From positions 591,716 through 655,715 of the forward strand of contig NZ_LT629969.1 of assembly GCF_900104665.1 (NCBI RefSeq): a DNA stretch of 64,000 bases, given 5' to 3'. This stretch comes from Traorella massiliensis (GTDB lineage Bacteria; Bacillota_I; Bacilli_A; Erysipelotrichales; Erysipelotrichaceae). Under the pieces are notes generated by a model. The model saw nothing but the letters and a program-made list of their open reading frames with translations. It made no database searches and was not told where the DNA came from. Both the position numbers and the translations under genes were made by a program. Positions 14,882 to 50,820 of this stretch are shown here, in pieces (position 1 is the first letter of the stretch; every line of letters begins with the position of its first letter).

Positions 14882-16578
14882 GTAAAGTGAAAAGTTAAAT
14901 TCTACTTTAATATAGGAAGAGATGAATTTAATCTTTCACAAAATTCATGTTGAATTTACTCTTTCAATATGTCATATTGAAAATGACCGGAAGCAGCCAG
15001 AATCACAAAGAAAGGAGGCCCTTATGGCTGCCACAAATAAAAATAAACATATGACCGAAAATGAAAGAAAAATTATTGAATCAAGTATTCGTAATGGTGC
15101 CACCCATACGGCCATTGCACAAGTCATCGGTAAAGACAAGTCTACCATAGGAAAGGAAATCAGGCTTCATCGGGTCCTGACTTATAAATGCAATCTTCCT
15201 CTGGAATGTGTGAACCGATCCAAATGCTCTCATAATCACAGCTGTAAATTGGAATGCCCTGATTATATCCGGTTTAAATGCTCACGAAGAGACAGAAGTC
15301 CCGGGGCCTGCAATGGCTGTTCAAAATTTCATTCCTGCAGATTCAATAAATATGTCTATCAGCCCGAAACAGCTCACAGAGAGTACAGGAATACGCTTGT
15401 CGATTCAAGAGTGGGCGTGAACCTGACAACAGAGGAGGCAAAAAAGATGGGCGGAATTGTCAAACCGCTTCTTGATCAGGGCCAGTCCCCTTATCAAATC
15501 ATTCAGGCTCATCCGGAATTAGGAATTACTGAAAGAACCCTCTATACTTATATCGAAACAGGCGTATTCAGTATTGTCGGAATCAGTGTTATGGACCTAA
15601 GACGCCAGGTATCCAGAAAAAAATTCAAGTCTAAGAAAGCCGCTTTAAAAAAGCGTGAAGACAGAAGATTCCTGAAAGGGAGAACCTATAAGGATTACTG
15701 TAACTATCTCTCCGAGAATGAGGACGCCAGAATCGTACAGATGGATACGGTATACAACGATATATCAAATGGTCCATTTATTCAGACATTCAAATTTGTG
15801 AAATACGGCTTCCTGTTCGGCATCCTTCACGAAGAGAAAACAGAGGAAGCGATGGTTTCAGGCGTGAATGCTTTAGAAAATCTTTTAGGCAGCGAACTTT
15901 TCCATGAAGAAGTTGAAATTCTTCTGACAGACCGCGGAAGCGAAATGGCCGATGCAGAAGGAATTGAAAAAAAAGAAAACGGAGCAAGAAGAACCCGTGT
16001 CTATTACTGTGATCCGATGCAGTCCACACAAAAGGCAACCCTGGAAAACAATCATATTGAACTGCGCTACATTTTTCCAAAAGAAACAGATTTAAGAGCT
16101 CTGGGGCTAACATCTCAGAAAGCCTTGAATACTGCACTGTCGCATATTAACTCGATGTCAAAAGAAAAGCTCAACGGAAAGTCACCCATTGAGCTGATGG
16201 AATTTCTTCATCCTGAACTCATGAAGAAATTCAACGATTTTGGAATTACCAGAATCGAAAAAGATAACATTATTCTAAAGCCCTACTTATTGAAAAAATA
16301 ATGAATTAAAAACCAGCTGCTTCACGGTCTTTCAAACAAAACATAGTAGAATTTAGTCTTTCCAGCCAAAAAAATTTCTAAATTCTCCTATCCTTTATTG
16401 CGGCCTTTTTATGTTATCGTCAATAATATTATATACCTGAAACAGTAATTCCTACAATAACAAAAAGCAAATAACTATCCGTCTGTCCTGATAACTATTT
16501 CATTTTAGAAATGATGAACGACTAATTTCCACATTTTTTTGTCGCTTTTTAAAGTAGAATTTAACTTTTCACTTCACG
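14882..16578 (+). mobile_element. IS30-family-like insertion sequence, copy 1 (1697 bp)
   Basis: Ends carry inverted repeats with the core AAGTGAAAAGTTAAATTC. The flanks show a 14-bp direct repeat, AAAAATCTTGCGAA at 14868-14881 and 16579-16592; its border is uncertain by one base. It is identical in length and transposase sequence to the inverted copy at 23307-25003. Target duplications of 2-3 bp are usual for IS30 elements, but IS1630 of Mycoplasma fermentans is known for long ones. The insertion point lies between tRNA-His and the pheS promoter. Confidence 0.92.
15024..16301 (+). CDS. IS30-family transposase
   Basis: 425 residues from ATG 15024, which has AAAGGAGG upstream; the frame is open further 5' but without a start signal. 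N-terminal helix-turn-helix (GATHTAIAQVIGKDKSTIGK), then a Cys-rich insertion with about ten cysteines (residues ~60-110), then the DDE integrase core: Asp in VQMDTVYND, Asp in LLTDRGSEM, Glu in NNHIELRYIFPKETDLR. Identical to the copy at 23584-24861, so both should be active enzymes or very recent copies. Confidence 0.93.
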   Translation: MAATNKNKHMTENERKIIESSIRNGATHTAIAQVIGKDKSTIGKEIRLHRVLTYKCNLPLECVNRSKCSHNHSCKLECPDYIRFKCSRRDRSPGACNGCSKFHSCRFNKYVYQPETAHREYRNTLVDSRVGVNLTTEEAKKMGGIVKPLLDQGQSPYQIIQAHPELGITERTLYTYIETGVFSIVGISVMDLRRQVSRKKFKSKKAALKKREDRRFLKGRTYKDYCNYLSENEDARIVQMDTVYNDISNGPFIQTFKFVKYGFLFGILHEEKTEEAMVSGVNALENLLGSELFHEEVEILLTDRGSEMADAEGIEKKENGARRTRVYYCDPMQSTQKATLENNHIELRYIFPKETDLRALGLTSQKALNTALSHINSMSKEKLNGKSPIELMEFLHPELMKKFNDFGITRIEKDNIILKPYLLKK

Positions 16579-29969: not shown

Positions 29970-31700
29970 GGACGAAAAGTAGTACTTAATCGAAAAGAAA
30001 AAGAAGAGATTTTAAATAAAAAAGTTAAATAAAAAAAATGAGCGCACTAAAAACAAGTGCACAAATGAAATAAAATAAATTTAGCGAAAATCAGGTTTCA
30101 TTTTTAATCCAAGCATCAAGATGAATATTGATGGCGGCAAAGATTGAAAAGAAAGCTGCTTTGGAGTCTTCACGAATTCTCATCTGATGAAGATGATAGT
30201 CATTGAGAATTCTATTATTGATTCTCTCAGTACAAGTTCTATTTTTGTATAGTTCTTTCCATTTATCTGTTTTGTAAGGAACAGGGCCAAAAAGACGCAT
30301 ATCAAGCGAATCGTTAATGTAAACAGTTCTACCATATGGAGAAGGAGAACATGTATCTGCATGTGGACAAGAATCAATCAATCCCATTTTTAGAGGACAA
30401 CGGAATTTTCTTCTTTGCCTTTGATAGTCGTAGCCACAGTGATACATTTCAACACCACAATCACAAATTGGTTTGCCGTTTTCACTAATAGAATCAAAGT
30501 GTTTATAAATATTTTTACCCAATTTACGTTGATTGAAATCAATGATTGGGATAATATTATGGTGACGCAGAAATTGGTAAACGGCAGAAGAATCGCTTGC
30601 GGAATCGAAACACATGAATTTTGGAGAGAGTTCAGGGTTAATATCAAGGAAACGAGCGGTAGAGGAAATGGAAGACAGAGCATCATGACGAGAAGCTTTC
30701 TCTAAATCGATAAAGACGGGAAGGTCAGTATGGATTAGAGGGTTATGATAAGAAATGTTATAGAGAGTATAACCGAAGTAATACATTCCAAGATCACTGT
30801 CCCAACCAAAATCTGCGTTTTTAGCGCTATAACGATGAGTGTTTAAAATATTGTCATCTTTAATGATTTGATGACCAAAAGGAGAAGCATGAATATGAAA
30901 AGCAGAACCATCACCAGAAAAGACAAGATTGTAGGAATCAATAAAGCCCATGTCATGAGAAGGAATGACAGCAATAGCGTTAAAAAGTAATTGAAGAGTA
31001 TAAATCATACGATCACGGTCAAAAACAGAACCATCATGAGTGTAATTATCGAAAAGAGAATAAGTATCATCATTAGAGAAGTTCATTAATTTTTCACCTT
31101 TCTTAGGTTTAGAAGAATTAGATTTATTCGTAAAAAGGCCTTTAGGAAGAAGATCGTTATGGTGAGAAAAAGAATGAGTGATACGGTTAATGAAATCGTA
31201 ATGAGAAGAATGGTTAGGAACATTCCAAGAACCGATAAGATATTGAAGAAGCCTATCGTGATGAACTTCATAACACCAATTTTTAAGAGAAGTAAAACCA
31301 AGATGAAGCATCAAAACGACAGAACGCAAATAGATAGCAGGATCGTTAGCGGGACGACCCAAAGGAGAATATAAAGGAAAGATGATATCGGCGACAAGGT
31401 CGACATCAAGTTTAGACAACTTATGAATAGCAGACTTAAAATTAGGAGAAGAAAGTCTGAAAAGATCAGAAGTTGAAAGAGAAGACTTTTCTGTCTTAAG
31501 AAATTCTTTGTAATCTTGAGACGAAGAGAAATAAATTAACATTGAAGATCACCACCTACTTACTACAGAAAGGCGAGCAAAGCGAGCCCGCAACGAGGGC
31601 GATTTGTCAAGCAAAAAGTGAAAAAAGTTGGGGGGATTTCAAAAAAACGGCAATTAAAAAAGAGCGTAAACAAGCCGTTAAAATGTTTTCGACCACGCTC
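29964..31700 (-). mobile_element. Insertion sequence, copy A (1737 bp)
   Basis: Inverted ends share GAGnnnGGnCGAAAA. A 5-bp target duplication, TTGTA, is at 29959-29963 and 31701-31705. The element at 40662-42398 has the same length and transposase, with one base difference seen (30060 C, 40758 A). Family not settled; the transposase is of the DDE type with a DUF772-like N-terminal region (GRPANDPAIYLRS), as in IS1182/IS5-like groups. Confidence 0.9.
30091..31542 (-). CDS. DDE-type transposase (IS1182/IS5-like)
   Basis: 483 residues. The N-terminal block YSPLGRPANDPAIYLRSVVL and the NWCYEVHHDRLLQYLIG stretch resemble the helical DUF772 domain of IS1182/IS5-like transposases. A Cys/His cluster near the C-terminal third (ICDCGVEMYHCGYDYQ, SCPHADTCSP) resembles the zinc-binding stretch seen in such enzymes. 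AGGTGGTG precedes the ATG. Identical protein at 40789-42240. Confidence 0.85.
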   Translation of the reverse strand: MLIYFSSSQDYKEFLKTEKSSLSTSDLFRLSSPNFKSAIHKLSKLDVDLVADIIFPLYSPLGRPANDPAIYLRSVVLMLHLGFTSLKNWCYEVHHDRLLQYLIGSWNVPNHSSHYDFINRITHSFSHHNDLLPKGLFTNKSNSSKPKKGEKLMNFSNDDTYSLFDNYTHDGSVFDRDRMIYTLQLLFNAIAVIPSHDMGFIDSYNLVFSGDGSAFHIHASPFGHQIIKDDNILNTHRYSAKNADFGWDSDLGMYYFGYTLYNISYHNPLIHTDLPVFIDLEKASRHDALSSISSTARFLDINPELSPKFMCFDSASDSSAVYQFLRHHNIIPIIDFNQRKLGKNIYKHFDSISENGKPICDCGVEMYHCGYDYQRQRRKFRCPLKMGLIDSCPHADTCSPSPYGRTVYINDSLDMRLFGPVPYKTDKWKELYKNRTCTERINNRILNDYHLHQMRIREDSKAAFFSIFAAINIHLDAWIKNET

Positions 31701-36028: not shown

Positions 36029-36577
36029 CCTTTTAAGATAATTTCTGATTTCAATATAAAGATATTGATATCTTGAAACATATTCACGAAGCATTTTCTT
36101 GATCGTAAAACGATAGGGAGCATGAAACATAATGACATCATCAAAAAATTTACGGCTCATCGCATAGGCACGATTTACATGGTAGCCACTTGTCAGAATG
36201 CCAATTTTCTTAAATTGATGTTCCTGGCAAAGTTTTTGAGTGTATTTCATATTTTCATAAGTTGTTGTACTTTTATCTTCTAAAAGTGCTTTTTGATGAG
36301 TTAGCTTTGTAAAGTATTCAGCCATGATCGAAGCTTCTGAATAATGATTATGAGCTTTCCCGCCTGTAAAGATACATACGGGTATCTTATATTGGATGAC
36401 AGCCTTTGCGGCCTTTTCTACACGCATTTTCTGAGTGACTGACATCGTGCCATCATCATAGGCAGGACATCCCAAAACGATCAGGGCGTCCACATAGCCT
36501 TCATCACGTTTGCAAGAAGGAAAACAGATGACAGGAAGTAATAGGAATAAAACAAGGATCAATAATATGAATATCAT
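36017..36577 (-). CDS. YdcF/SanA-like DUF218 membrane-anchored protein
   Basis: 186 residues. An N-terminal hydrophobic helix (residues ~1-20) and the DUF218 core: DALIVLGCPAYDDG, then CIFTGGKAH, SEASIMAEYF and ILTSGYHVNRAYAMSRKFF. Family members are implicated in envelope processes; the reaction is not known. The start overlaps the tmcAL stop by 4 nt, indicating an operon. Confidence 0.85.
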   Translation of the reverse strand: MIFILLILVLFLLLPVICFPSCKRDEGYVDALIVLGCPAYDDGTMSVTQKMRVEKAAKAVIQYKIPVCIFTGGKAHNHYSEASIMAEYFTKLTHQKALLEDKSTTTYENMKYTQKLCQEHQFKKIGILTSGYHVNRAYAMSRKFFDDVIMFHAPYRFTIKKMLREYVSRYQYLYIEIRNYLKRKEK

Positions 36578-37638
36578 AGAAAAATAGGCGCCTCCAATTC
36601 TCTTTTACGGAAGTCTTCACGTAAATGTTCTGGCAGAGCTAATGAATAAAGACAGGTGGCTTTATATTCCATTTGCCGGTAGGCTTCTTCAATCTGATTA
36701 AATTTAGAAGCATAGAGAAAATCACTTTTTCTTAAATATTGCCTTCCTTTATCATTAGCTCCTAAAATACGGACAGAATTTGGTAAAGAAAGCTCATTGA
36801 CCTGTTTTTTTGTTGTCTGATTCAATAAATGAATGCAAGTACGCTGAATCCTGCTTCGAGTATATTTTTTTGAGACAGAATGGTTCATAAATTCTTCAAA
36901 AGATGAAGCTTGAGCATTTTTGATCAAAAGATTTTCAATACCTTCATCCATTAGAAACAACTCTTTAAGAGAATCTTTTGGAAGCGTAAAAAGCAATAGT
37001 TGAATCATTGGATAAAAATCTTTCAAAAAAACAGGATTTTCTATTTTGACTGGTGTCGCTTTTGAAATATCCAGCTGATCTTGAACAGCTTTACGGATAC
37101 TGGTGGCACTAGAAATGTTTTCTTCCAATTGTTCATCAAAGTAGTGATTGGTTCTTTTGATACAATAAGGCTTCATATTTTTAGAATATTTAAGATAATT
37201 GATACCTAAGATATCATTGGCATAAAGGGTTCCATACATCTGTTCATATGATTGTACAGGTGCCTTCTTTTTATCTAATGCCATCTTTTCTAATTGAGAA
37301 AGGCGAATAAGTTCTTGAAGATCATGACTTTCTGAGCCAAAACAAAAAGCATCACAGCCCATCAGGTTTAAAAGATGCATCGCCCCCATAGCAAAAGGTT
37401 CAGCACTTTGGGTGGCAAAGATAAAAGGTAATTCAACGACCAAATCAACTCCATGTTCAAGGGCGTTTTGGGTTCGATGCCATTTGTCAATAATGGCAGG
37501 TTCTCCACGCTGAACGAAGTTTGGCGACATGACAGCAATTAAAATATCACAATGAGTGATTTGTCTAGTTTGGCTGATATGGTGAATATGACCATTATGA
37601 AATGGGTTATATTCCACGACGATTCCACATGTTTTCAT
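36574..37638 (-). CDS. tmcAL: tRNA(Met) cytidine acetate ligase TmcAL (YlbM)
   Basis: 354 residues from ATG 37638, which begins MKTCGIVVEYNPFHNGHIHH, the nucleotidyltransferase signature with HNGH. Further blocks: MSPNFVQRGEPAIIDKW and VELPFIFATQSAEPFA. The enzyme makes N4-acetylcytidine at the wobble base of elongator tRNA-Met using acetate and ATP. A TATATT box ends 6 nt before the ATG on the minus strand and there is no ribosome binding site, so the message may be leaderless. Confidence 0.93.
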   Translation of the reverse strand: MKTCGIVVEYNPFHNGHIHHISQTRQITHCDILIAVMSPNFVQRGEPAIIDKWHRTQNALEHGVDLVVELPFIFATQSAEPFAMGAMHLLNLMGCDAFCFGSESHDLQELIRLSQLEKMALDKKKAPVQSYEQMYGTLYANDILGINYLKYSKNMKPYCIKRTNHYFDEQLEENISSATSIRKAVQDQLDISKATPVKIENPVFLKDFYPMIQLLLFTLPKDSLKELFLMDEGIENLLIKNAQASSFEEFMNHSVSKKYTRSRIQRTCIHLLNQTTKKQVNELSLPNSVRILGANDKGRQYLRKSDFLYASKFNQIEEAYRQMEYKATCLYSLALPEHLREDFRKRELEAPIFL

Positions 37639-37671
37639 GAGCTTAATATACCATAAAATCATAAATTATGA

Positions 37672-37677
37672 TATATT
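37672..37677 (+). promoter_or_regulatory. -10 box of the hydrolase gene
   Basis: TATATT at 37672-37677 in the short divergent region shared with tmcAL. Transcription from it would begin past the ATG at 37680, which decides for the start at 37695. Confidence 0.45.
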
Positions 37678-37694
37678 AAATGAAGGTGAGGAAA

Positions 37695-38612
37695 ATGGAA
37701 TTTAAGTTCTATAAAACAAAATCGAGGGTCGATGGTCTTTTGTTAGAAGTGATGGTCATTGAACCTGAAGGTGAAGTAAAGGGCATTCTTCAAATGTGTC
37801 ATGGCATGGCTGAAAATAAGGAAAGATATCAGCCAGTAATGAAAAAGATGGCAGAAAATGGTTATATCTGTGTGATGCATGATCATCGTGGACATGGTAA
37901 TATCGACAATGAGGATCTAGGACATTTTAATGATTCTAGTGGAAATGCCATTGTAAGTGATGTGATTCAGATTAGTGATGAGATCAAAGTGAAGTATCCT
38001 GATCTTCCAATCATCTTATTTGGTCATTCAATGGGAAGTCTTGTCGTTCGCTGTGTCATGAAAAGAAATGATGATGCATATGCAGGTTTGATCGTTTGTG
38101 GTTCACCATCAAAAAACCCATTAACTTCTTTAGCGATCATGCTCGTGAAAGTGATGAGTATTTTCTTAGGAAAGCGGCATCGCTCAAAACTAGTAGATAA
38201 GTTAGCTTTTGGTACATATAATAAAGCATTTGATGAAGTTTATTATCCGCATTCATGGATCAGCAGTGTAAAAGAAGTGCAGGATGCTTATCAGGAAAGT
38301 GATAAGTGTGGTTTTTTGTTTACGCTTAATGGTTATCTCAATCTGTTCTTGCTTCTAAAAAACACCTATGATCCAACAGGATGGCAGATGAAGAATAAAG
38401 ACTGTCCGATTTATTACATTGTAGGTGAAGAAGACCCATGTCGCATCAGTCAGAAAGATTTTGAATATGCCGTTGATTTTATGAAAGATCGAGGATATAC
38501 CCATGTAGAGAGTAAAGTCTATCCTCATGCTCGCCATGAAATCTTAAATGAATACTGCAAAGAAGAAGTCATGCAGGATATGTTAACATTTATGGATAAG
38601 ATAGTAGGATAA
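37695..38612 (+). CDS. Alpha/beta hydrolase (monoacylglycerol-lipase-like)
   Basis: 305 residues from ATG 37695, with AAGGTGAGG upstream. Serine hydrolase fold: oxyanion block [18 protein letters not shown] near residue 67, nucleophile elbow GHSMGS at ~115, acid in GEEDPCRIS, and the catalytic histidine in [11 protein letters not shown]. Resembles lysophospholipase and monoglyceride lipase homologues. No signal peptide. Confidence 0.85.
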
Positions 38613-38622
38613 TGAGGTATTT

Positions 38623-38964
38623 ATGGAAAAAGTATATAATAAACTAGTCAGAGATAATATTCCTAAAATTATAAAAGACGATGGACGTGAACCTATCGTA
38701 AAGGTATTAGATGATAAAACGTTTAAAAAGGAATTGGAGATAAAGTTATTAGAAGAATATAAAGAAGTGTTATCCGCAGATACAAGTGAGGATAGAATAG
38801 AAGAATTGGCTGATATGTTAGAAATCATACGTTCGCTAAGTATCTTAGAGAATAAAACATTAGAGGATATTGTAGAAGTAGCTAATTTAAAACGTAATAA
38901 ACGTGGTGGTTTTGAAAAAAAGATTTTTTTGGAAAGAGTCTTAGAAAATGATGAACAAATTTAA
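38623..38964 (+). CDS. MazG-like / phosphoribosyl-ATP pyrophosphohydrolase-like protein
   Basis: 113 residues. Starts VYNKLVRDNIPKII, and holds the acidic NTP-pyrophosphatase pattern LLEEYKEVLSADTSEDRIEE followed by LADMLEIIR. These helices bind magnesium in all-alpha NTP pyrophosphatases. Members of this short family occur near phage and defence genes. It overlaps the next gene by 17 nt, which suggests an operon with the HNH gene; a house-cleaning or defence role is inference. Confidence 0.8.
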   Translation: MEKVYNKLVRDNIPKIIKDDGREPIVKVLDDKTFKKELEIKLLEEYKEVLSADTSEDRIEELADMLEIIRSLSILENKTLEDIVEVANLKRNKRGGFEKKIFLERVLENDEQI

Positions 38965-39325
38965 TGTGTTCAAACAAATCATTAGAGAAAGTAATTATGA
39001 CAATACTTATAAAATGGCGTGGGCTAAATCATTAGTTGAAATATCAACTCAAATTGATTTAACAAATGAAAAAATAACAATTCAGTTTAGTGATATTGCG
39101 AAAAAGTATATCAAATATTACTGGAATCAAACAATCTTTTTTAACTTAAAACAAGGTTCTAATCCCTTAAAACCACCTGTAATTTTAACTTGTGTGAAAG
39201 AACTCATTGACAAATATTTTATGTGTGTACAATCAAAAGCACCCGAATTATATGAAAAAGCAGAAACTAAATTTGAAAAATTCAATTTGTTAGAAGATTA
39301 TAATAGAACTATAAAAAAGATGTGA
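38948..39325 (+). CDS. HNH endonuclease, N-terminal part (upstream frame)
   Basis: 125 residues. Helical region with YYWNQTIFFNLKQGSNPLKP and VKELIDKYF. In relatives as I know them, this part is fused directly to the segment encoded by the next frame: a single protein reads through KKDVSWRF. Here the frame ends at TGA 39323-39325, seven bases after an A-rich slippery site, and the nuclease part continues in the -1 frame. Either a programmed shift or an indel separates them. Confidence 0.75.
   Translation: MMNKFNVFKQIIRESNYDNTYKMAWAKSLVEISTQIDLTNEKITIQFSDIAKKYIKYYWNQTIFFNLKQGSNPLKPPVILTCVKELIDKYFMCVQSKAPELYEKAETKFEKFNLLEDYNRTIKKM
39313..39319 (+). other. Slippery heptamer A AAA AAG in zero frame
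   Basis: The zero-frame codons ATA AAA AAG set up the same heptamer used by E. coli dnaX. A -1 slip gives AAA AAA GAT GTG AGT TGG, entering the HNH frame at 39322. I see no clear stimulatory hairpin within 20 nt downstream. Confidence 0.6.
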
Positions 39326-39900
39326 GTTGGCGTTTTAAAATATTAAATGGCAAAGATACAGAATTATATTCTTATATCAAAGGGGACGATTTTTTAGAAA
39401 TAGATTCTTCATTATTACAATTATTGAAAGAAAATGAACAGGATTTGTACGATCTGATAAATTATCGATGGGGATTAATCTTGGAAACATTTAATAGTAC
39501 ACCAAGAATTAATAAGAAAGTTAAAATTATGGACGAAAGAGAGATAAAAAGAAGTTCCTTAAATAAATTTAAAAGTTATTTAGATTTAGAAAATAAAGAA
39601 CACAAATGTTTTATTTGTAATAAGAAAATAGAAGATCATCTCTCTATTGATCATGTTATTCCTTGGTCATATATGTATTCAGATGATGTTTGGAATCTAG
39701 TGTATGTATGTCAAACTTGTAATTCGAGTAAAAATAATAGAATTCCAACAAGAATTGAAATTATTAAATTAATAAAAAGAAATAAAAATCTTTTAAAATG
39801 TATGGAAGACAATGGAATTAATAATAAAATATATGATGAATTAAAAATATCAATAGAAAAAGATTATGTAAATAAGTTCTGGACAGGAAGTAAGAGCTAG
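39322..39900 (+). CDS. HNH endonuclease, C-terminal nuclease part
   Basis: 192 residues in the open frame. The HNH fold shows CFICNKKIEDHLSIDHVIPW with DH as catalytic pair, and the second CxxC in YVCQTCNSSKNN. The upstream region WRFKILNGKDTELYSYIKGD is the expected continuation of the preceding frame. The GTG start at 39322 has no ribosome binding site of its own and overlaps the upstream stop by 4 nt, so independent translation is doubtful and read-through or re-initiation is more likely. Confidence 0.85.
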   Translation: MSWRFKILNGKDTELYSYIKGDDFLEIDSSLLQLLKENEQDLYDLINYRWGLILETFNSTPRINKKVKIMDEREIKRSSLNKFKSYLDLENKEHKCFICNKKIEDHLSIDHVIPWSYMYSDDVWNLVYVCQTCNSSKNNRIPTRIEIIKLIKRNKNLLKCMEDNGINNKIYDELKISIEKDYVNKFWTGSKS

Positions 39901-39932
39901 TAGATGCTAAAATAGCAAAGATAATATTCACT

Positions 39933-39966
39933 TATAGTAAAAACAGCAATTTTTACTATAATTTTT
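39933..39966 (+). terminator. Terminator of the MazG-HNH operon
   Basis: An 11-bp perfect stem (39933-39943 with 39950-39960) and ATTTTT. Confidence 0.85.
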
Positions 39967-40399
39967 AAAGGTCTGTTGAGTAATTAATCATTTACAGTTA
40001 TTTAAAATTATTGTCATGAATTATTAATTAACATGTAAGTAAGAATATATTATCATAATAACAGATGAACTTCATACAAATATGAAACCCTGGTGTTGCA
40101 ATCACTGGGGTTTTATTATGAAGGGAAAATCGTAGATTATCGTTTAATCAGACTAATGTACAGTATGTTCAAACGTAAACATTCCTTCACAGCTACGACA
40201 TTTTCATATAATAATTGGAGAAGAATGATAAGTTCAAATCCCAACTGCACCCCCTCTATACAAATAATACAGACGTCATGAATTTTCACTTCTTTGTAGG
40301 GAACCTACTATTCTATATCCATGAAAATGTCTTTTTTTCTAAAAATATTTACATTTTATTATTTATTTCTCATTGATTAGTAACAATTTTATCAAAAAC
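39967..40399. other. Gene-poor stretch with an isolated terminator-like hairpin
   Basis: No convincing gene. A GC-rich hairpin with T-run (AACCCTGGTG with CACTGGGGTT) lies at 40086-40116 and could end a small RNA. The 62-residue frame at 40093-40281 starts inside this hairpin and is not supported. Confidence 0.4.
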
Positions 40400-40434
40400 G
40401 ATAGATGTGTTATGTTTTTTTAACAGGCTTTTTT
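40400..40434 (+). repeat. Upstream element, copy 1
   Basis: GATAGA, two variable bases, TGTTATGTTTTTTTA, one variable base, CA. It repeats at 40608-40641 and stands upstream of the 33-residue gene, while the second copy stood upstream of the gene at 42421 before an IS inserted. A shared operator or promoter part is inferred. Confidence 0.5.
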
Positions 40435-40465
40435 GTATGATAATAATAGAAATGGAGGATAAACG

Positions 40466-40567
40466 ATGAATAAAGTAGAATTTGTATTAAAAAAAGTTTT
40501 TAAGTTCTTATTTTATGTTTGTATTTTCTTTTATTATTTATTAAAGAAAGCAAGTGAAAACTTATAA
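40466..40567 (+). CDS. Small hydrophobic peptide (33 residues)
   Basis: ATG 40466 follows a strong AATGGAGGAT ribosome binding site. The product starts MNKVEFVLKKVFKFLFYVC, continues with a hydrophobic and aromatic stretch, and ends LLKKASENL: a single, Phe/Tyr-rich transmembrane or amphipathic helix with lysines at both ends. No family recognised. The build resembles small membrane-active peptides such as type I toxins or regulators of membrane proteins; that is a guess. A TATGAT box is at 40435-40440. Confidence 0.5.
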   Translation: MNKVEFVLKKVFKFLFYVCIFFYYLLKKASENL

Positions 40568-40607
40568 GAGGGAAGATAGAGTGAAAGATTGGATAATTAT
40601 AAAAAAA

Positions 40608-40661: not shown

Positions 40662-42398
40662 GAGTAAGGACGAAAAGTAGTACTTAATCGAAAAGAAAAA
40701 GAAGAGATTTTAAATAAAAAAGTTAAATAAAAAAAATGAGCGCACTAAAAACAAGTGAACAAATGAAATAAAATAAATTTAGCGAAAATCAGGTTTCATT
40801 TTTAATCCAAGCATCAAGATGAATATTGATGGCGGCAAAGATTGAAAAGAAAGCTGCTTTGGAGTCTTCACGAATTCTCATCTGATGAAGATGATAGTCA
40901 TTGAGAATTCTATTATTGATTCTCTCAGTACAAGTTCTATTTTTGTATAGTTCTTTCCATTTATCTGTTTTGTAAGGAACAGGGCCAAAAAGACGCATAT
41001 CAAGCGAATCGTTAATGTAAACAGTTCTACCATATGGAGAAGGAGAACATGTATCTGCATGTGGACAAGAATCAATCAATCCCATTTTTAGAGGACAACG
41101 GAATTTTCTTCTTTGCCTTTGATAGTCGTAGCCACAGTGATACATTTCAACACCACAATCACAAATTGGTTTGCCGTTTTCACTAATAGAATCAAAGTGT
41201 TTATAAATATTTTTACCCAATTTACGTTGATTGAAATCAATGATTGGGATAATATTATGGTGACGCAGAAATTGGTAAACGGCAGAAGAATCGCTTGCGG
41301 AATCGAAACACATGAATTTTGGAGAGAGTTCAGGGTTAATATCAAGGAAACGAGCGGTAGAGGAAATGGAAGACAGAGCATCATGACGAGAAGCTTTCTC
41401 TAAATCGATAAAGACGGGAAGGTCAGTATGGATTAGAGGGTTATGATAAGAAATGTTATAGAGAGTATAACCGAAGTAATACATTCCAAGATCACTGTCC
41501 CAACCAAAATCTGCGTTTTTAGCGCTATAACGATGAGTGTTTAAAATATTGTCATCTTTAATGATTTGATGACCAAAAGGAGAAGCATGAATATGAAAAG
41601 CAGAACCATCACCAGAAAAGACAAGATTGTAGGAATCAATAAAGCCCATGTCATGAGAAGGAATGACAGCAATAGCGTTAAAAAGTAATTGAAGAGTATA
41701 AATCATACGATCACGGTCAAAAACAGAACCATCATGAGTGTAATTATCGAAAAGAGAATAAGTATCATCATTAGAGAAGTTCATTAATTTTTCACCTTTC
41801 TTAGGTTTAGAAGAATTAGATTTATTCGTAAAAAGGCCTTTAGGAAGAAGATCGTTATGGTGAGAAAAAGAATGAGTGATACGGTTAATGAAATCGTAAT
41901 GAGAAGAATGGTTAGGAACATTCCAAGAACCGATAAGATATTGAAGAAGCCTATCGTGATGAACTTCATAACACCAATTTTTAAGAGAAGTAAAACCAAG
42001 ATGAAGCATCAAAACGACAGAACGCAAATAGATAGCAGGATCGTTAGCGGGACGACCCAAAGGAGAATATAAAGGAAAGATGATATCGGCGACAAGGTCG
42101 ACATCAAGTTTAGACAACTTATGAATAGCAGACTTAAAATTAGGAGAAGAAAGTCTGAAAAGATCAGAAGTTGAAAGAGAAGACTTTTCTGTCTTAAGAA
42201 ATTCTTTGTAATCTTGAGACGAAGAGAAATAAATTAACATTGAAGATCACCACCTACTTACTACAGAAAGGCGAGCAAAGCGAGCCCGCAACGAGGGCGA
42301 TTTGTCAAGCAAAAAGTGAAAAAAGTTGGGGGGATTTCAAAAAAACGGCAATTAAAAAAGAGCGTAAACAAGCCGTTAAAATGTTTTCGACCACGCTC
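40662..42398 (-). mobile_element. Insertion sequence, copy B (1737 bp)
   Basis: Same ends and orientation as copy A (29964-31700), flanked by the 5-bp duplication TAAAT (40657-40661 and 42399-42403). It separates the sequence TATAAA at 40655 and the upstream element from the gene at 42421, whose ribosome binding site begins 7 nt past the right target copy. Confidence 0.9.
40789..42240 (-). CDS. DDE-type transposase, identical to copy A
   Basis: 483 residues with the same sequence as the transposase at 30091-31542. Both copies face the same way and flank a segment of about 9 kb holding araC, malEFG, ydcF, tmcAL, the hydrolase and HNH genes. Confidence 0.85.
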   Translation of the reverse strand: MLIYFSSSQDYKEFLKTEKSSLSTSDLFRLSSPNFKSAIHKLSKLDVDLVADIIFPLYSPLGRPANDPAIYLRSVVLMLHLGFTSLKNWCYEVHHDRLLQYLIGSWNVPNHSSHYDFINRITHSFSHHNDLLPKGLFTNKSNSSKPKKGEKLMNFSNDDTYSLFDNYTHDGSVFDRDRMIYTLQLLFNAIAVIPSHDMGFIDSYNLVFSGDGSAFHIHASPFGHQIIKDDNILNTHRYSAKNADFGWDSDLGMYYFGYTLYNISYHNPLIHTDLPVFIDLEKASRHDALSSISSTARFLDINPELSPKFMCFDSASDSSAVYQFLRHHNIIPIIDFNQRKLGKNIYKHFDSISENGKPICDCGVEMYHCGYDYQRQRRKFRCPLKMGLIDSCPHADTCSPSPYGRTVYINDSLDMRLFGPVPYKTDKWKELYKNRTCTERINNRILNDYHLHQMRIREDSKAAFFSIFAAINIHLDAWIKNET

Positions 42399-43262: not shown

Positions 43263-46200
43263 ATGAATAAAAACATGAATTATAGTATTGGAATTGATAC
43301 AGGAACTTCATCAGTTGGCTGGGCAGTTATTGATGAGCAATTTAAGCTTTTAAAAAAGAATAAAAATCATTTATGGGGAAGCAGAATATTTGAAGAAGCT
43401 CGAACCGCTGCTAATAGACGATTAAATCGGTCATCAAGAAGAAGGTACAATAAAAGAAGAGAAAGAATTTTTCTTCTTCAATCAATTATGGAAAAAATGG
43501 TTCTGGAAAAGGATCCAACATTTTTTATACGTATGAAAAATAGTACTTTTTTAGTTCAAGAAGATAAAAAGGAAGTTCTTCAGGAAAATTATAAAGATAA
43601 TTATAATTTATTTTCAGATAAGGAGTTTACGGATAAAGATTATTATAAGAAATTTCCAACCATCTATCATTTAAGAAATTATTTATGTAATAGTAATAAA
43701 AAAGAAGATCCTAGATTAATTTATCTTGCCTTGCATCATATTATAAAATATAGAGGAAATTTTCTTTATGAGGGAAAAGAATTTATAAATGACAAATTAG
43801 ATATAAAAGAAAAATTAGGATCATTGTTGAATCATGTTTTTGAAGAAAATGGTATTGAAGAGGATATAGACGATATAAATATCCAAAATATAATTGAGAC
43901 ACTGACAAGTAATCTTACAAAAAAGGAAAAAGTTGAAAAATGTGTATCAAAGTTTGAAGCAACTAGTTCATTAAAATCGATTCTTACTAATTTATTTAAT
44001 GGAGTTTTAGGGATGTCATGTAATTTTTCAAAAATTTATCCGTTTGAAAAACTAAAAGACGATGATAAAGATATTATATTTAAATTGTCTGAAGAAGATT
44101 TTAATGATCTGTTAACAAAATATGAAACTGCATTAGATGATAATAAATTATCTGTTTTTGAAGAAATTCAAAACGTATATAGCTGGATAGAACTTCAGCA
44201 AATTTTAGGGGAAGATTCTAATGGGGCTACAATTTCTGAAATAATGATCAAAAAATATGAGGACCATAAAAAAGATTTGAAACAATTAAAAAAAATTATC
44301 AAAGAATATGATACTAAAGTATATCATGAAGTTTTCAGAGATAAGATAAATGAGCATAATTATTATAATTATATTTATCATCCAAAAAAAGCATCACAAG
44401 ATAACTTTTACAAATATATTAAGAAAATATTGCTGAAAATTGATACATGTGAAGCCTATCAATTAATTGAAAAAATTGAAAAAGAAAATTTTATGTTAAA
44501 ACAAAATAGTCGCATTTATGGTTCGATTCCATATCAGATGCAACTTCAGGAACTTCGTATGATCTTAGACAAGCAATCAAATTATTATCCAGAATTAATG
44601 GAAAATAAAGATAAAATAATAAAAATACTCGAATTTAGAATTCCTTATTTTTATGGTCCTTTAGATGGAAATAAAACATTTGGATGGCTAAAAAAGAAAA
44701 TTGGTAAGGAAGATGAGAGAATTTTGCCATGGAATCATGAAGAAATTGTAGATGTCGATAATACAGCAGCTCTATTTATTGAAAAATTAAAAAGTATGTG
44801 TACATATTTACCAAGTGAACCTGTAATGCCTAAAAATTCGCTAACTTGCAATAAGTATGAAGTTCTCTCCGAACTTAATAAGATAAGGATTAATGGTAAA
44901 TTAATTAGAAGGGATACGAAATTACGTATCATTAATGATTTATTCTTAAAACATAAAAAAGTGAAAGAAAAACATTTAATTGATTGGTTGAATAATGAAG
45001 AGTATGGAGAAATAAAAGAAATTACTGGTTATCAGAAGGATAAAGAATTTGCTTCATCTATGAATGTGTGGATAGATTTTATGAATATTTTTGGAGAGGT
45101 TAATGATGAGAACTATCAATTAATTGAAAAAATAGCAAATGATGTTACAATATTCAATGATCCAAAAATATTAAAAAGAAGATTAAAAAAGGTTTATCTT
45201 TTATCTGAAGATAAGATAGAAAAAATAATGAAGCTGAATTATAAAGGATGGTCAAGTTTATCTTCAAAATTAGTAAATGGTTTATATGCTGACAACAGAA
45301 TTAGCTCTCATGCTACTATTTTGGATGTAATGGAAGAAGATAATTTAACTTTAATGGAAATTATTAATGATGATCAGTTGGGGTATGATCAGTTAATACA
45401 AAATGAATATTTTAAAGAAAATGATAATATTTCAGTATATGAAGAAATCGATAAACTTGCCTGTTCTCCAGCAATCAAAAAAAGTATTCGTCAGACTTTT
45501 CTAATTATAGATGAAATCGCTCATTTTATGGGACATAATCCAACGAATGTATTTATAGAATTTGCACGTGAAGAAAAAACAAAAAAAAGGACTTTGTCTC
45601 GTACCACACAATTAGAACAAATCTATAAAAACTTGGAATTAAATACTGAAGTAAAAGAAATAATAAGTAAATTAAATGATTATAAAGATTCAGGACGTAT
45701 GGATGATCGGCTATATTTATATTTTACACAAATGGGAAAATGTATGTACTCAAATAAACCTTTAGATATCAATCGATTAAGTGATTATCAAATTGACCAT
45801 ATTCTTCCTCGTTCGTTAATCAAGGATGATAGTTTAGATAACAAGGTTCTTGTCATTTCTTCAGAAAATCAAAGAAAATTGGATGATTTAGTTGTGCCTT
45901 TGGAAATTAGGAACAGGCAATATATGATCTGGAAAAATTTATACGATAAAAGACTAATTTCAAAAAAGAAATTTATTAATTTAACACGTTCAAAGATGGA
46001 TGACAACATGGTTGAGAAATTTATTAATCGCCAATTGGTAGAAACTCGTCAAGTAATAAAACATGTTGCTAGAATTATTTCAAGTTATTACGGAGGTACT
46101 AAAGTTTATGCGATACGTGCTAACCTAGGTCATAGTTATAGAGAAAAATATGAAATTCTCAAAATCAGGGAATTAAATCATTTTCATCACGCACATGATG

Positions 46201-47231
46201 CATATATCGCTTCGATTATCGGATTGTTCGTGAAGAAATCATTACCAAAACTTAATGGTAGATTTGACTATAATAGTTATATACATAATCAAAAAAGTAA
46301 GCTTGGAAATCAAGGACATTCTGGTTTTATATTAAATTCAATGAACTATACTCATTATGATCTTGATACAGGTGAGATACTTTGGGAACCTGAAATGATA
46401 AATAATATTAATAAGGTATTTGATTATAAAGATTGTTATGTTACAAAAAAACTTGAAGTTAATGATGGTCAATTATTTAAAATAACTATTATGCCATCAG
46501 ATAAAAATAGTAAAAATGGAAAAACTGAAGCTTCTTTTCCAGTAAACAAAAATAGACAAGATGTGCAAAAATATGGAGGATTTACTCAAATTAGCTATAA
46601 TTTTTATGCAATAGAAGGAAAAAAATTGTCAAAAAAACAAGAATTTATTAGAAGAATTGTAAATATTCCTTTATATTTACAAAATCAATCTAATGAAGCA
46701 CTCATTCAATATGTTGAAAAAGAATATAAGTTAAACTATGTTAATATCATTAAACAAATTAAAAAGAATCAGCTAGTTGAAATAAATGGAGGATTATTCT
46801 TTATTAGTTCAGCAGATGAACTTCAAAATGCAAAACAATTAATTTTGAATAGGAAACAAACAATTATACTAAATGAAATAATAAAATCTATAAAAATTAA
46901 CGATTATCAATCAATAGACGAAACACAGATTAATACGCTATATATAGATTTAATAGAAAAAATGTTTTTTCATTATCCTAAATATAAAAAAATTGCTGAA
47001 AAGCTATCTGATAAAACTGAATCGTTTAAAAATTCTGATATTGATATTAAATGCAAAGTAATCATTGAGATTTTAAATGTAATGTCAGCTGGAGCAAAAA
47101 ATGGAAATTTAAAATTGCTTGGTTTAACAGATAGAGTTGGGCGAATCAACAAAATAATGATAGATTTAGATAAGACGGTTTTCTATCATCAGTCTGTAAC
47201 TGGTATATATTGTAAAAAGGAAAAGCTATGA
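43263..47231 (+). CDS. cas9: CRISPR-associated endonuclease Cas9 (type II-A)
   Basis: 1322 residues. RuvC-I SIGIDTGTSSVGWAV with Asp12, arginine-rich bridge helix at ~52-70 (NRRLNRSSRRRYNKRRERI), RuvC-II FIEFAREE with Glu766, HNH YQIDHILPRS with His846, RuvC-III HFHHAHDAYIAS with His976 and Asp979. All catalytic residues are present, so both strands should be cut. GAAAGGAAG precedes ATG 43263; a second ATG at 43275 is possible. Guided by the crRNA:tracrRNA duplex of this locus. cas1 overlaps its stop by 4 nt. Confidence 0.97.
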   Translation: MNKNMNYSIGIDTGTSSVGWAVIDEQFKLLKKNKNHLWGSRIFEEARTAANRRLNRSSRRRYNKRRERIFLLQSIMEKMVLEKDPTFFIRMKNSTFLVQEDKKEVLQENYKDNYNLFSDKEFTDKDYYKKFPTIYHLRNYLCNSNKKEDPRLIYLALHHIIKYRGNFLYEGKEFINDKLDIKEKLGSLLNHVFEENGIEEDIDDINIQNIIETLTSNLTKKEKVEKCVSKFEATSSLKSILTNLFNGVLGMSCNFSKIYPFEKLKDDDKDIIFKLSEEDFNDLLTKYETALDDNKLSVFEEIQNVYSWIELQQILGEDSNGATISEIMIKKYEDHKKDLKQLKKIIKEYDTKVYHEVFRDKINEHNYYNYIYHPKKASQDNFYKYIKKILLKIDTCEAYQLIEKIEKENFMLKQNSRIYGSIPYQMQLQELRMILDKQSNYYPELMENKDKIIKILEFRIPYFYGPLDGNKTFGWLKKKIGKEDERILPWNHEEIVDVDNTAALFIEKLKSMCTYLPSEPVMPKNSLTCNKYEVLSELNKIRINGKLIRRDTKLRIINDLFLKHKKVKEKHLIDWLNNEEYGEIKEITGYQKDKEFASSMNVWIDFMNIFGEVNDENYQLIEKIANDVTIFNDPKILKRRLKKVYLLSEDKIEKIMKLNYKGWSSLSSKLVNGLYADNRISSHATILDVMEEDNLTLMEIINDDQLGYDQLIQNEYFKENDNISVYEEIDKLACSPAIKKSIRQTFLIIDEIAHFMGHNPTNVFIEFAREEKTKKRTLSRTTQLEQIYKNLELNTEVKEIISKLNDYKDSGRMDDRLYLYFTQMGKCMYSNKPLDINRLSDYQIDHILPRSLIKDDSLDNKVLVISSENQRKLDDLVVPLEIRNRQYMIWKNLYDKRLISKKKFINLTRSKMDDNMVEKFINRQLVETRQVIKHVARIISSYYGGTKVYAIRANLGHSYREKYEILKIRELNHFHHAHDAYIASIIGLFVKKSLPKLNGRFDYNSYIHNQKSKLGNQGHSGFILNSMNYTHYDLDTGEILWEPEMINNINKVFDYKDCYVTKKLEVNDGQLFKITIMPSDKNSKNGKTEASFPVNKNRQDVQKYGGFTQISYNFYAIEGKKLSKKQEFIRRIVNIPLYLQNQSNEALIQYVEKEYKLNYVNIIKQIKKNQLVEINGGLFFISSADELQNAKQLILNRKQTIILNEIIKSIKINDYQSIDETQINTLYIDLIEKMFFHYPKYKKIAEKLSDKTESFKNSDIDIKCKVIIEILNVMSAGAKNGNLKLLGLTDRVGRINKIMIDLDKTVFYHQSVTGIYCKKEKL

Positions 47232-48097
47232 CTTGGCGTACTGTTGTAGTGAAATCAAAATCAAGACTTTCATACAAGAATGATTATTTAATTATTCGCA
47301 ACGAAAAGCTTAATTTAATTCACCTTTCAGAAATATCAACACTTTTGATAGATTCTACTGCTGTATCAATCACTTCTTACTTGATATCAGAATTAATGAA
47401 ACGGAAAATTAAAGTTATTTTTTGTGATGATAAAAGAAATCCACAAAGTGAACTAATTCCATATTATGGCGCTCACAATTCAAGTCAAACTATTATGAAA
47501 CAGATAAATTGGACTTTATATACTCAAAAAATATGGACCAGAATTATCAAAGAAAAAATATGTAATCAATCTAAATTGTTGTATTCATTAGACAATAAGA
47601 ATTATCAAAAGCTTATAAAATATAGTGAAGAATTACAACTAATGGATTCTACCAACAGGGAAGGCCATGCGGCTAAAGTGTATTTTAATTCATTGTTTGG
47701 TATGGAATTTTCGAGAGAAGAAAGTAATGATATAAATGCTTCTTTAAATTATGGCTATTCAATTTTATTATCACAATTTAATAAGTCTATTGTAAATTAT
47801 GGTTATTTAACACAAATTGGTATCAAACACAGTAATTACTTTAATAATTTTAATCTTTCTAGCGATTTAATGGAACCATTTCGACCGTTGATAGATAAAA
47901 TAGTTAAGAATACTGAAAAAGTATATTTTGATACTTCAATGAAACTATCTCTTCTGGAAGTTTTAGATAATAAGATAATAATTAAAAATAAGGAACAATA
48001 TGTAAGTAATGCAATTAATATTTATGTTAAAAGTGTATTCAATGCGATTGAAAATGAGAATACAGAATTAATAGAATTTTACAGTTATGAGTTTTAG
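47228..48097 (+). CDS. cas1: CRISPR integrase Cas1
   Basis: 289 residues, usual for type II-A. Shows the N-terminal beta domain (RTVVVKSKSRLSYKNDYLII) and the helical catalytic domain, with the Glu in NREGHAAKVYFNSLFG and the later SNYFNNFNLSSDLMEPFRPL block containing the His/Glu site region. It overlaps cas9 by 4 nt and cas2 by 11 nt. Inserts new spacers at the leader end together with Cas2, Csn2 and Cas9. Confidence 0.95.
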   Translation: MTWRTVVVKSKSRLSYKNDYLIIRNEKLNLIHLSEISTLLIDSTAVSITSYLISELMKRKIKVIFCDDKRNPQSELIPYYGAHNSSQTIMKQINWTLYTQKIWTRIIKEKICNQSKLLYSLDNKNYQKLIKYSEELQLMDSTNREGHAAKVYFNSLFGMEFSREESNDINASLNYGYSILLSQFNKSIVNYGYLTQIGIKHSNYFNNFNLSSDLMEPFRPLIDKIVKNTEKVYFDTSMKLSLLEVLDNKIIIKNKEQYVSNAINIYVKSVFNAIENENTELIEFYSYEF

Positions 48098-48407
48098 ATA
48101 TATGAGAATGATTCTATTTTTTGATCTGCCAACTTTAACATATTCACAACGCAAATCTTATCAGAAATTTCATAAGTTTTTAATTAAATCGGGTTATATT
48201 ATGATGCAAGAAAGTGTTTATTGCAAACTTGCTTTAAATAGTTCAATAGTAAAAAGTGAGAAATTGAAATTAGAAAAGAATAAACCAGAAGAAGGTTTGA
48301 TACAAATGTTAGTAGTAACAGAGAAGCAGTTTTCACAGATGGAATATATTATTGGCAATAAACAAAGTCAAATAGAAGATAGCGAAAAAAGGATCATTAT
48401 AATATGA
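48087..48407 (+). CDS. cas2: CRISPR-associated protein Cas2
   Basis: 106 residues. Starts with the ferredoxin-like fold MRMILFFDLPTLTYSQRKSYQKF, the Asp after FF being the usual conserved residue, and ends with a strand (QSQIEDSEKRIIII). The start could be ATG 48087 or an internal ATG five or seven codons later; ribosome binding signals do not decide. Dimerises between Cas1 dimers. Confidence 0.93.
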   Translation: MSFRYMRMILFFDLPTLTYSQRKSYQKFHKFLIKSGYIMMQESVYCKLALNSSIVKSEKLKLEKNKPEEGLIQMLVVTEKQFSQMEYIIGNKQSQIEDSEKRIIII

Positions 48408-49099
48408 AAGTTAGAATTAAAGGATTTTACAAAGATATTGAAACATTTTCTTATAAAAATGTGCTATTAGCTATTGAGGATAAAAAATTATTTACTAACA
48501 CTATAAAAAACATATTGACTTATGATCATCGTAACTTAAATGAAATAATTATTTATAATGATGAATTAGAACTTGTTTTATCAAAAAATGTTATTTTGAT
48601 AAAGGATATTTTCAGTTTTGAAATTAATTCTAAAACAATTCTTAATAAGTTATATTTATCTCTAAAGCAGATAATAGAAGAGAGTAATGAATTAGTTAAT
48701 AGTTTTTATTCATCCATCAATATGATAAATCATTCTATAATTAATGCAGCAAGTGAATGGAGCTTCGATTTAATTTTGAATGAACAGTTAGAATTAGAAA
48801 CATATTTTAAATCTCATGGTATAAAAATATGGGCAGAATATTCAACATTGCTAGAAAAAGCACTATTGATAATAGAAATTCTTTCTGAATTTATGCCAGA
48901 TATTCTTTTAATTATATCTCATTCTCTAGATTATTTTGATGATGAAGAAGTAAAGGAAATACTTAAATATATACGGTATAAACAAATAGATGCATTATTT
49001 ATAGAAAATTCGATTGAAAGAGAATCGCTATTTGAAGATGTATATTTAATTGATAACGAATTTGATTTGATTTATAATAAAGATATAAATTCAAAATAA
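48404..49099 (+). CDS. csn2: CRISPR-associated protein Csn2
   Basis: 231 residues, the gene that defines subtype II-A. The family is weakly conserved: KVRIKGFYKDIETFSYKNVL at the N terminus and ILSEFMPDILLIISHSLDYF in the P-loop-like core. It forms a DNA-end-binding ring needed for adaptation. It overlaps cas2 by 4 nt. Its 3' end contains the promoter of the array. Confidence 0.92.
   Translation: MKVRIKGFYKDIETFSYKNVLLAIEDKKLFTNTIKNILTYDHRNLNEIIIYNDELELVLSKNVILIKDIFSFEINSKTILNKLYLSLKQIIEESNELVNSFYSSINMINHSIINAASEWSFDLILNEQLELETYFKSHGIKIWAEYSTLLEKALLIIEILSEFMPDILLIISHSLDYFDDEEVKEILKYIRYKQIDALFIENSIERESLFEDVYLIDNEFDLIYNKDINSK
49050..49078 (+). promoter_or_regulatory. CRISPR array promoter inside the csn2 3' end
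   Basis: TTGATA (49050-49055), 17-nt spacer, TATAAT (49073-49078). Transcription would begin near 49085, about 50 nt before repeat 1. Confidence 0.75.
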
Positions 49100-49135: not shown

Positions 49136-50820
49136 GTTTTAGAGTTATGTTATTTTGAATAGATCCAAAACTGAAACATGGGATGGATATTTGGAATACA
49201 GTTTTAGAGTTATGTTATTTTGAATAGATCCAAAACGAATTTTCTCATATTTTAGCCGTATATCAAGTTTTAGAGTTATGTTATTTTGAATAGATCCAAA
49301 ACCACACCCCCTTTATCGGAACTTTGATTATAGTTTTAGAGTTATGTTATTTTGAATAGATCCAAAACTAGTGGAACGAGCACTCCTGCGTCTTCTTTGT
49401 TTTAGAGTTATGTTATTTTGAATAGATCCAAAACAAGAGTTGGTGTTGGCCGTGTTCTTGATGGGTTTTAGAGTTATGTTATTTTGAATAGATCCAAAAC
49501 TCTAGATATGTTGCCACAATAGAAATCTGGGTTTTAGAGTTATGTTATTTTGAATAGATCCAAAACTAAAAGACTTTCAGAACTTGAATTTGAAGAGTTT
49601 TAGAGTTATGTTATTTTGAATAGATCCAAAACAATGGACTATCTCGAATCTAAAATCGCTTTGTTTTAGAGTTATGTTATTTTGAATAGATCCAAAACTG
49701 TTAAAGTTGGTGCAGGTCTTAATATATCGTTTTAGAGTTATGTTATTTTGAATAGATCCAAAACTGGTACATATAAATTTAATGTTGATGATATGTTTTA
49801 GAGTTATGTTATTTTGAATAGATCCAAAACTGTTGGATTCTTGGCAATCGGTGGCGCAGTGTTTTAGAGTTATGTTATTTTGAATAGATCCAAAACAAAG
49901 GTACATCTCAGCGTCTGGACATATAAGTTTTAGAGTTATGTTATTTTGAATAGATCCAAAACTGTGATACTTTCTGCGAACGGCTTTCTTACGTTTTAGA
50001 GTTATGTTATTTTGAATAGATCCAAAACGATTATTGATTATCAGACTTCTTTGATATTGTTTTAGAGTTATGTTATTTTGAATAGATCCAAAACGACAAA
50101 CTGTCTCAAGGCCACGATGATAAAGTTTTAGAGTTATGTTATTTTGAATAGATCCAAAACCGAATATATGAACGTAGAGAGTGAATTTGGGTTTTAGAGT
50201 TATGTTATTTTGAATAGATCCAAAACTTTCACCTGTGTAAGCATTGCATCGGCTATGTTTTAGAGTTATGTTATTTTGAATAGATCCAAAACGTGTGCAG
50301 ATACTGGCACAAAAGAGGGCAGGTTTTAGAGTTATGTTATTTTGAATAGATCCAAAACTGGTGTTATAAGTGCTAACCAGCGCATTGTGTTTTAGAGTTA
50401 TGTTATTTTGAATAGATCCAAAACTTTTGTTGTGAATGATGAATCGTTCGGGTGGTTTTAGAGTTATGTTATTTTGAATAGATCCAAAACAGAGGCTTGA
50501 CCTTGCAGATGAGAAGTCTGGTTTTAGAGTTATGTTATTTTGAATAGATCCAAAACTGACACATTATATATAGAAACAAAATCAGCGTTTTAGAGTTATG
50601 TTATTTTGAATAGATCCAAAACTGAAAAGTTAGATGAAGTACCAAATATGCAGTTTTAGAGTTATGTTATTTTGAATAGATCCAAAACCTCCTACACAGA
50701 CTCTTAGCGTAACTGTCGGTTTTAGAGTTATGTTATTTTGAATAGATCCAAAACATATTCAGCTGGATGCCGAGTTCAGCGGGAGTTTTAGAGTTATGTT
50801 ATTTTGAATACTTTCAAAAC
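49136..50820 (+). CRISPR. Type II-A CRISPR array, 26 repeats and 25 spacers
   Basis: Repeat of 36 bp beginning GTTTTAGAGTTATGTTATTT and ending GAATAGATCCAAAAC, with a regular 66-bp period. Spacers are 30 nt, except the first (49172-49200), which is 29 nt. The last repeat (50785-50820) is degenerate near its 3' end (ATACTTTC for ATAGATCC), marking the old end, in agreement with a leader at 49100-49135. All other repeats look identical. The repeat pairs with the tracrRNA at 43104-43222. No spacer match inside this window was noticed. Confidence 0.99.

Follow-up and report, generated by a model that had tools for sequence, protein, structure and literature searches.

The window analysed here is a 64,000-nucleotide stretch of the Traorella massiliensis genome, in which a short MazG-like gene is followed by two overlapping open reading frames, ORF A and ORF B (Table 1). 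The overlap is 4 nt long, and a -1 step at the A_AAA_AAG heptamer joins the two frames as NRTIKKDVSWRF, with the ORF A stop codon lying two codons past the heptamer. A sequence-only reading of the locus had proposed that the frames are two halves of one HNH protein overlapping by 4 nt, that a -1 slip would join them, and that the heptamer is of the dnaX type and sits in the zero frame; the ORF coordinates and the full-length relatives described below agree with the first proposal, and the joined sequence and the frame of the heptamer agree with the others. The HNH domain of ORF B scored above the Pfam cut-offs (HNH_4, E = 2.3e-10; HNH, E = 3.3e-10; HNH_5 was also matched), and the invariant residues of the motif, including the catalytic residues expected of a beta-beta-alpha-Me nuclease, are kept. 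ORF A had no match in Pfam, NCBIfam or PADLOC. Because relatives show both halves joined, we regard ORF A and ORF B as parts of one protein of about 325 aa.

Table 1. Features of the split nuclease locus (positions within the window).
Feature	Position	Strand	Remarks
MazG-like (all-alpha NTP-PPase / phosphoribosyl-ATP pyrophosphatase-like) gene, 113 aa, intact	38623-38964	+	ORF; overlaps ORF A
ORF A, N-terminal half of HNH nuclease (helical domain), 125 aa, ATG start	38948-39325	+	Ends with TGA at 39323-39325; matches N-terminal part of intact relatives
ORF B, C-terminal half with HNH domain, 192 aa	39322-39900	+	First start codon GTG at 39322; no evident Shine-Dalgarno sequence
A_AAA_AAG heptamer	39313-39319	+	Zero frame of ORF A; missing from the break point in relatives
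Site of net 22-nt deletion and frame break	39299-39324	+	Nucleotide comparison with L021; 7 more codons in 20/20 readable relatives
Cas9/IscB-type HNH motif (SIDHVIPWSYMYSDDVWNLVYVCQTCNSSKNN)	39601-39747	+	Conserved residues and Cys pairs intact
Acquired cassette (MazG-like and HNH genes)	38613-40386	.	No counterpart in sister species G057; flanking DNA continuous across the site

The junction in related nucleases

We used the read-through protein as a query and recovered full-length relatives of about 320-330 aa. Identity to the query was 57-65% for L021-L026, the nearest relative being L021 at 65%, and about 36-54% for others from the same family and order, with more distant relatives spread across the class. 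In each of the 20 relatives whose junction could be read (identities between 65% and about 36%), one frame runs straight across and has seven extra codons there, and A_AAA_AAG was found at the break point in none of them. The heptamer does occur further upstream in L048, and A_AAA_AAT occurs in L024 and L045, in each case inside an unbroken frame. The stretch from TATAAT (39299, YN codons) to GATGT (39319, DV codons) measures 20 nt in the window versus 42 nt in L021, a net loss of 22 nt, and this one event accounts for the disrupted frame as well as for the lack of seven residues. In the structure predicted by AlphaFold for an intact relative (mean pLDDT 85), the missing residues fall in helix 112-130. 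A hypothetical fused product would be short by 7 residues compared with every relative that can be read at the junction.

Intact relatives combined with a frame-breaking indel confined to one lineage are the mark of a pseudogene formed by an indel, and the net 22-nt loss was seen in the window only. Three readings of the split had been offered from the sequence alone, namely programmed frameshifting, a phase-variable A-run and a simple loss mutation; the loss mutation is supported by the 22-nt net loss and the intact relatives, whereas programmed frameshifting loses ground, since in relatives the frame runs on without interruption and the junction has no slippery motif that is conserved. We also searched for a second strain with the junction: a pattern allowing a variable A-run had no match among viral contigs, and searches of viral contigs, plasmids and phages returned distant relatives only.

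Overall, we consider it likely (probability roughly 0.8) that the two ORFs belong to a single HNH nuclease gene, part of a MazG-HNH cassette gained by horizontal transfer, and that a net 22-nt deletion inactivated this gene recently. The cassette would have been acquired by a low-GC gut-type bacterium, and the deletion would then have hit the helix-coding stretch before DVSWRF, inactivating the nuclease; both the direction of change and the loss of function are inferred. ORF A would thereafter yield the N-terminal helical domain only, and for ORF B no separate ribosome-binding site is evident. Although the heptamer is genuine, it is most likely incidental, a presumed remnant of the deletion in a lysine-rich stretch, and would at most permit low-level spontaneous -1 slippage and hence a trace of fused protein from which two turns of the helix are missing. 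Intact members of the family are most likely restriction-type nucleases that work in defence islands together with an NTP-pyrophosphatase.

Frameshift signals and the age of the break

We next consider the heptamer itself. Genes sampled from the host genome contain 61 in-frame copies of A_AAA_AAG among 122,552 codons (0.5 per 1000 codons; 53 of 336 genes), so that a copy no more than two codons from the break is unlikely to be there by chance. An exact dnaX-type heptamer at the break, in the correct frame and with a stop codon two codons on, is not expected at random and counts against a simple loss, as does the retention of all invariant residues in the fused product, which continued function would also explain. 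Both observations favour programmed -1 ribosomal frameshifting, by which a small, regulated amount of full nuclease would be made and its toxicity limited. A heptamer at the break is, however, also the natural outcome of a deletion that ended in a lysine-rich A-run. Moreover, no relative is split, or carries the motif, at the break point, and the frameshift product would be without 7 residues of a helix that is present in all readable relatives. Neither kind of stimulator was seen: we found no hairpin 3' of the heptamer (fold z = 0.06 for 81 nt and -1.09 for 41 nt, versus shuffled sequences), and no SD-like element 5' of it, the best anti-SD pairing being -1.5 kcal/mol, a value that 42% of positions equal or better. 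Thus, the window matches dnaX-type programmed frameshifting in its heptamer and its frame, with a zero-frame X_XXY_YYZ heptamer inside an ORF overlap, but differs from it in having neither stimulators nor conservation of the site among homologues, and in a product shorter than all readable relatives. In a published survey of frame transitions, programmed frameshifting is recognised by a conserved heptamer, and frame breaks that do not cluster are put down to indels or errors (PMC3711429). By that standard the junction, with no conserved site, is an indel, and we regard programmed frameshifting here as very unlikely. A textbook slippery heptamer can evidently arise as deletion debris, so a heptamer with overlapping frames should not be named recoding unless relatives have been compared.

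A nuclease made as two real subunits is still less probable, to the point of being hardly credible. ORF A and ORF B would be joined in expression by translational coupling across the TGA/GTG stop/start overlap, an arrangement that fits the 4-nt overlap, the GTG start and the position of the break between the N-terminal and HNH parts. By contrast, no SD sequence precedes the GTG at 39322, where anti-SD pairing reaches -1.1 kcal/mol versus -5.1 kcal/mol at the MazG-like gene; relatives are single-chain proteins; and the residues were removed from inside a helix, not at a linker.

The break is probably recent, as judged from the coding sequence on either side. The read-through protein keeps 55 of the 55 residues that are invariant in 16 relatives, and differences from L021 are in excess at third codon positions in both halves (0.43 versus about 0.22, and 0.35 versus about 0.21), both of which point to a recent event. 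Phase variation is another reading of the split, in which a separate in-frame 21-nt deletion would have produced a shorter working nuclease whose frame is then toggled by the short A-run. The loss could indeed be 21 + 1 nt, and a threonine recurs seven residues apart at this place in relatives (e.g., L021 and L022), making slippage between repeats plausible. Nonetheless, this scenario is improbable: it needs two events, differences in run length that change the frame at the break point were seen in no relative, and the A-run at the junction is only six bases long. A run of six bases is short for contingency loci.

A further reading is that the gene is intact, though shorter by 7 residues, and that its A-run was wrongly sequenced or assembled. 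We estimated error rates from 464 kb of the host genome compared with 535 kb of the sister species G057. One of the 63 orthologues compared is frame-broken, by a 1-nt break, indicating that single-base errors or young pseudogenes do exist in the assembly; however, a rate of 1 in 63 is low, and such an error would account for only 1 of the 22 missing bases. We therefore give this explanation little credence. The broken orthologue is a HAD-type hydrolase gene, named by inspection (L081, about 15150-15900; host contig C9 near 455-456 kb), which reads AAAATTTT versus AAATTTT in G057 and is either a young pseudogene or an assembly error.

Lesions elsewhere in the nuclease family

Seven relatives carry HNH genes broken by different lesions. 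L021 has a nonsense mutation at codon 10, L042 has one within the HNH motif, L037 has a stop plus a frame change, L143 has a TAG codon, and L158 ends before the HNH domain. In L036 (genome G112) the HNH motif is interrupted by about 3 kb containing TnpB-like and IS110-type ORFs (names by inspection), and a Paenibacillus plasmid copy differs by a 1-nt indel from an otherwise near-identical, intact plasmid copy. Several of the broken relatives come from metagenome assemblies, in which single lesions could be errors; judging by the set of lesions as a whole, the HNH nuclease gene is lost repeatedly. The positions of the lesions are scattered, which argues against a shared recoding site. We considered the split gene of Paenibacillus sp. 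37 as a second case at the same site and rejected it, as its 1-nt indel lies about 20 codons away and no heptamer is present.

The MazG-like partner, gene neighbourhoods and known systems

The MazG-like protein has the metal-binding motif EExxE...ExxD, with E44, E45, E48, E61 and D64 conserved in an alignment of 14 homologues. It had no match to Pfam MazG or PRA-PH at E up to 1 and none in PADLOC; weak matches to phosphoribosyl-ATP diphosphatase were obtained for 3 of the 14 MazG-like relatives, and homologues that adjoin the nuclease are annotated as "nucleoside triphosphate pyrophosphohydrolase". A blastn comparison of L028 with the window aligned positions 36180-38612 and 40387-40572, which are separated in G057 by only about 19 nt.

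The MazG-like gene lies directly 5' of the nuclease gene in most near relatives, and directly 3' of it in distant ones, namely L141, L148, L154, L157, L158 and two Paenibacillus plasmids. The existence of two gene orders suggests that the partnership between the MazG-like and HNH genes has been kept. The MazG-like family is also found alone (G113), and in L141 (1174-1487) a frame-broken MazG-like gene lies beside an intact HNH gene. Neighbours in relatives include a type IV methyl-directed restriction enzyme, NUDIX and Schlafen-group-3 helicase proteins, as well as McrBC, a cytosine methylase with Vsr (Dcm-Vsr), GmrSD and BREX genes. The earlier suggestion that the MazG-like gene in front adds a defence-like context is supported by the neighbourhoods of relatives. 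In a more distant homologue on an Acinetobacter plasmid (L171), the HNH gene overlaps the gene for a SAM-dependent methyltransferase, with WYL and BREX genes coming next, and may possibly be an accessory restriction unit of BREX.

More useful than the fate of the heptamer is this side result, that genes for an HNH nuclease and a MazG-like pyrophosphatase keep company, whichever comes first, beside several kinds of restriction system. We tentatively propose that the NTP-pyrophosphatase and the nuclease form an undescribed two-gene phage-defence module, present in both gene orders across Bacillota, in which the nuclease half is repeatedly lost and the pyrophosphatase kept, and that residual -1 slippage in the window might supply traces of a shortened nuclease. 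This proposal is doubtful as a whole. The pair, with its often broken nuclease, can be put to the test as a candidate small defence module. We found no described MazG-plus-HNH system in the open-access papers searched; a recent study likewise counts MazG domains among defence components, by prediction and not by experiment (PMC13092281).

No named defence protein in PADLOC was matched over its full length; the HNH-containing part alone matches the Cas9, PtuB and PDC-M01B profiles. Full-length homology was found to standalone HNH endonucleases of defence islands (RefSeq "HNH endonuclease domain-containing protein", e.g., WP_338709177.1 from a Paenibacillus plasmid, which is 46% identical to relative L022). 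The Paenibacillus plasmid locus has the same MazG-type neighbour as the window, but there the pyrophosphohydrolase gene follows the nuclease gene instead of preceding it, and the window nuclease is split. Modification-dependent type IV restriction enzymes of the SBD-HNH and SRA-HNH kinds (ScoMcrA, EcoWI; PMC6224610, PMC7461809) are alike in having a possible recognition-type N-terminal domain and a C-terminal HNH domain, and in context, given that McrBC and other type IV genes are among the neighbours of relatives. Residues 96-251 of ScoMcrA weakly matched residues 1-204 of the whole predicted model (Z = 6.6, 123 residues, rmsd 3.4, 6% identity). When the N-terminal domain was modelled alone, Foldseek returned no match at E <= 0.001 (best E = 0.57, a cytochrome P450) and ScoMcrA was missing from the VIA-align list; SBD and SRA had no Pfam match either. 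An SBD-like identity for the N-terminal domain is thus a lead only, drawn from structural models.

The HNH domain resembles that of Cas9 and IscB, with a profile match to the Cas9 HNH domain (6o56, E = 4e-10) and a match of the predicted model to 8d2k (Z = 7.4, 110 residues, rmsd 3.8). The protein differs from Cas9/IscB in that neither RuvC nor any other Cas9 domain was recognised in it, and in having a 200-residue helical domain before the HNH domain. We considered a link between the HNH gene and a nearby cas9 gene (43263) and rejected it, as nothing past the likeness of the HNH domains backs it. The window also contains two equal-length, 483-aa ORFs on the - strand that are transposase-like by inspection (30091-31542 and 40789-42240), the second of which is missing from the corresponding site in G057. 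By size and order of its genes, 43263-49099 is a type II CRISPR-Cas locus (a 1322-aa Cas9-like ORF, followed by ORFs of 289, 106 and 231 aa), and 49136-50820 is a CRISPR array of 26 near-identical 36-nt repeats with a 66-nt spacing, the last repeat being degenerate.
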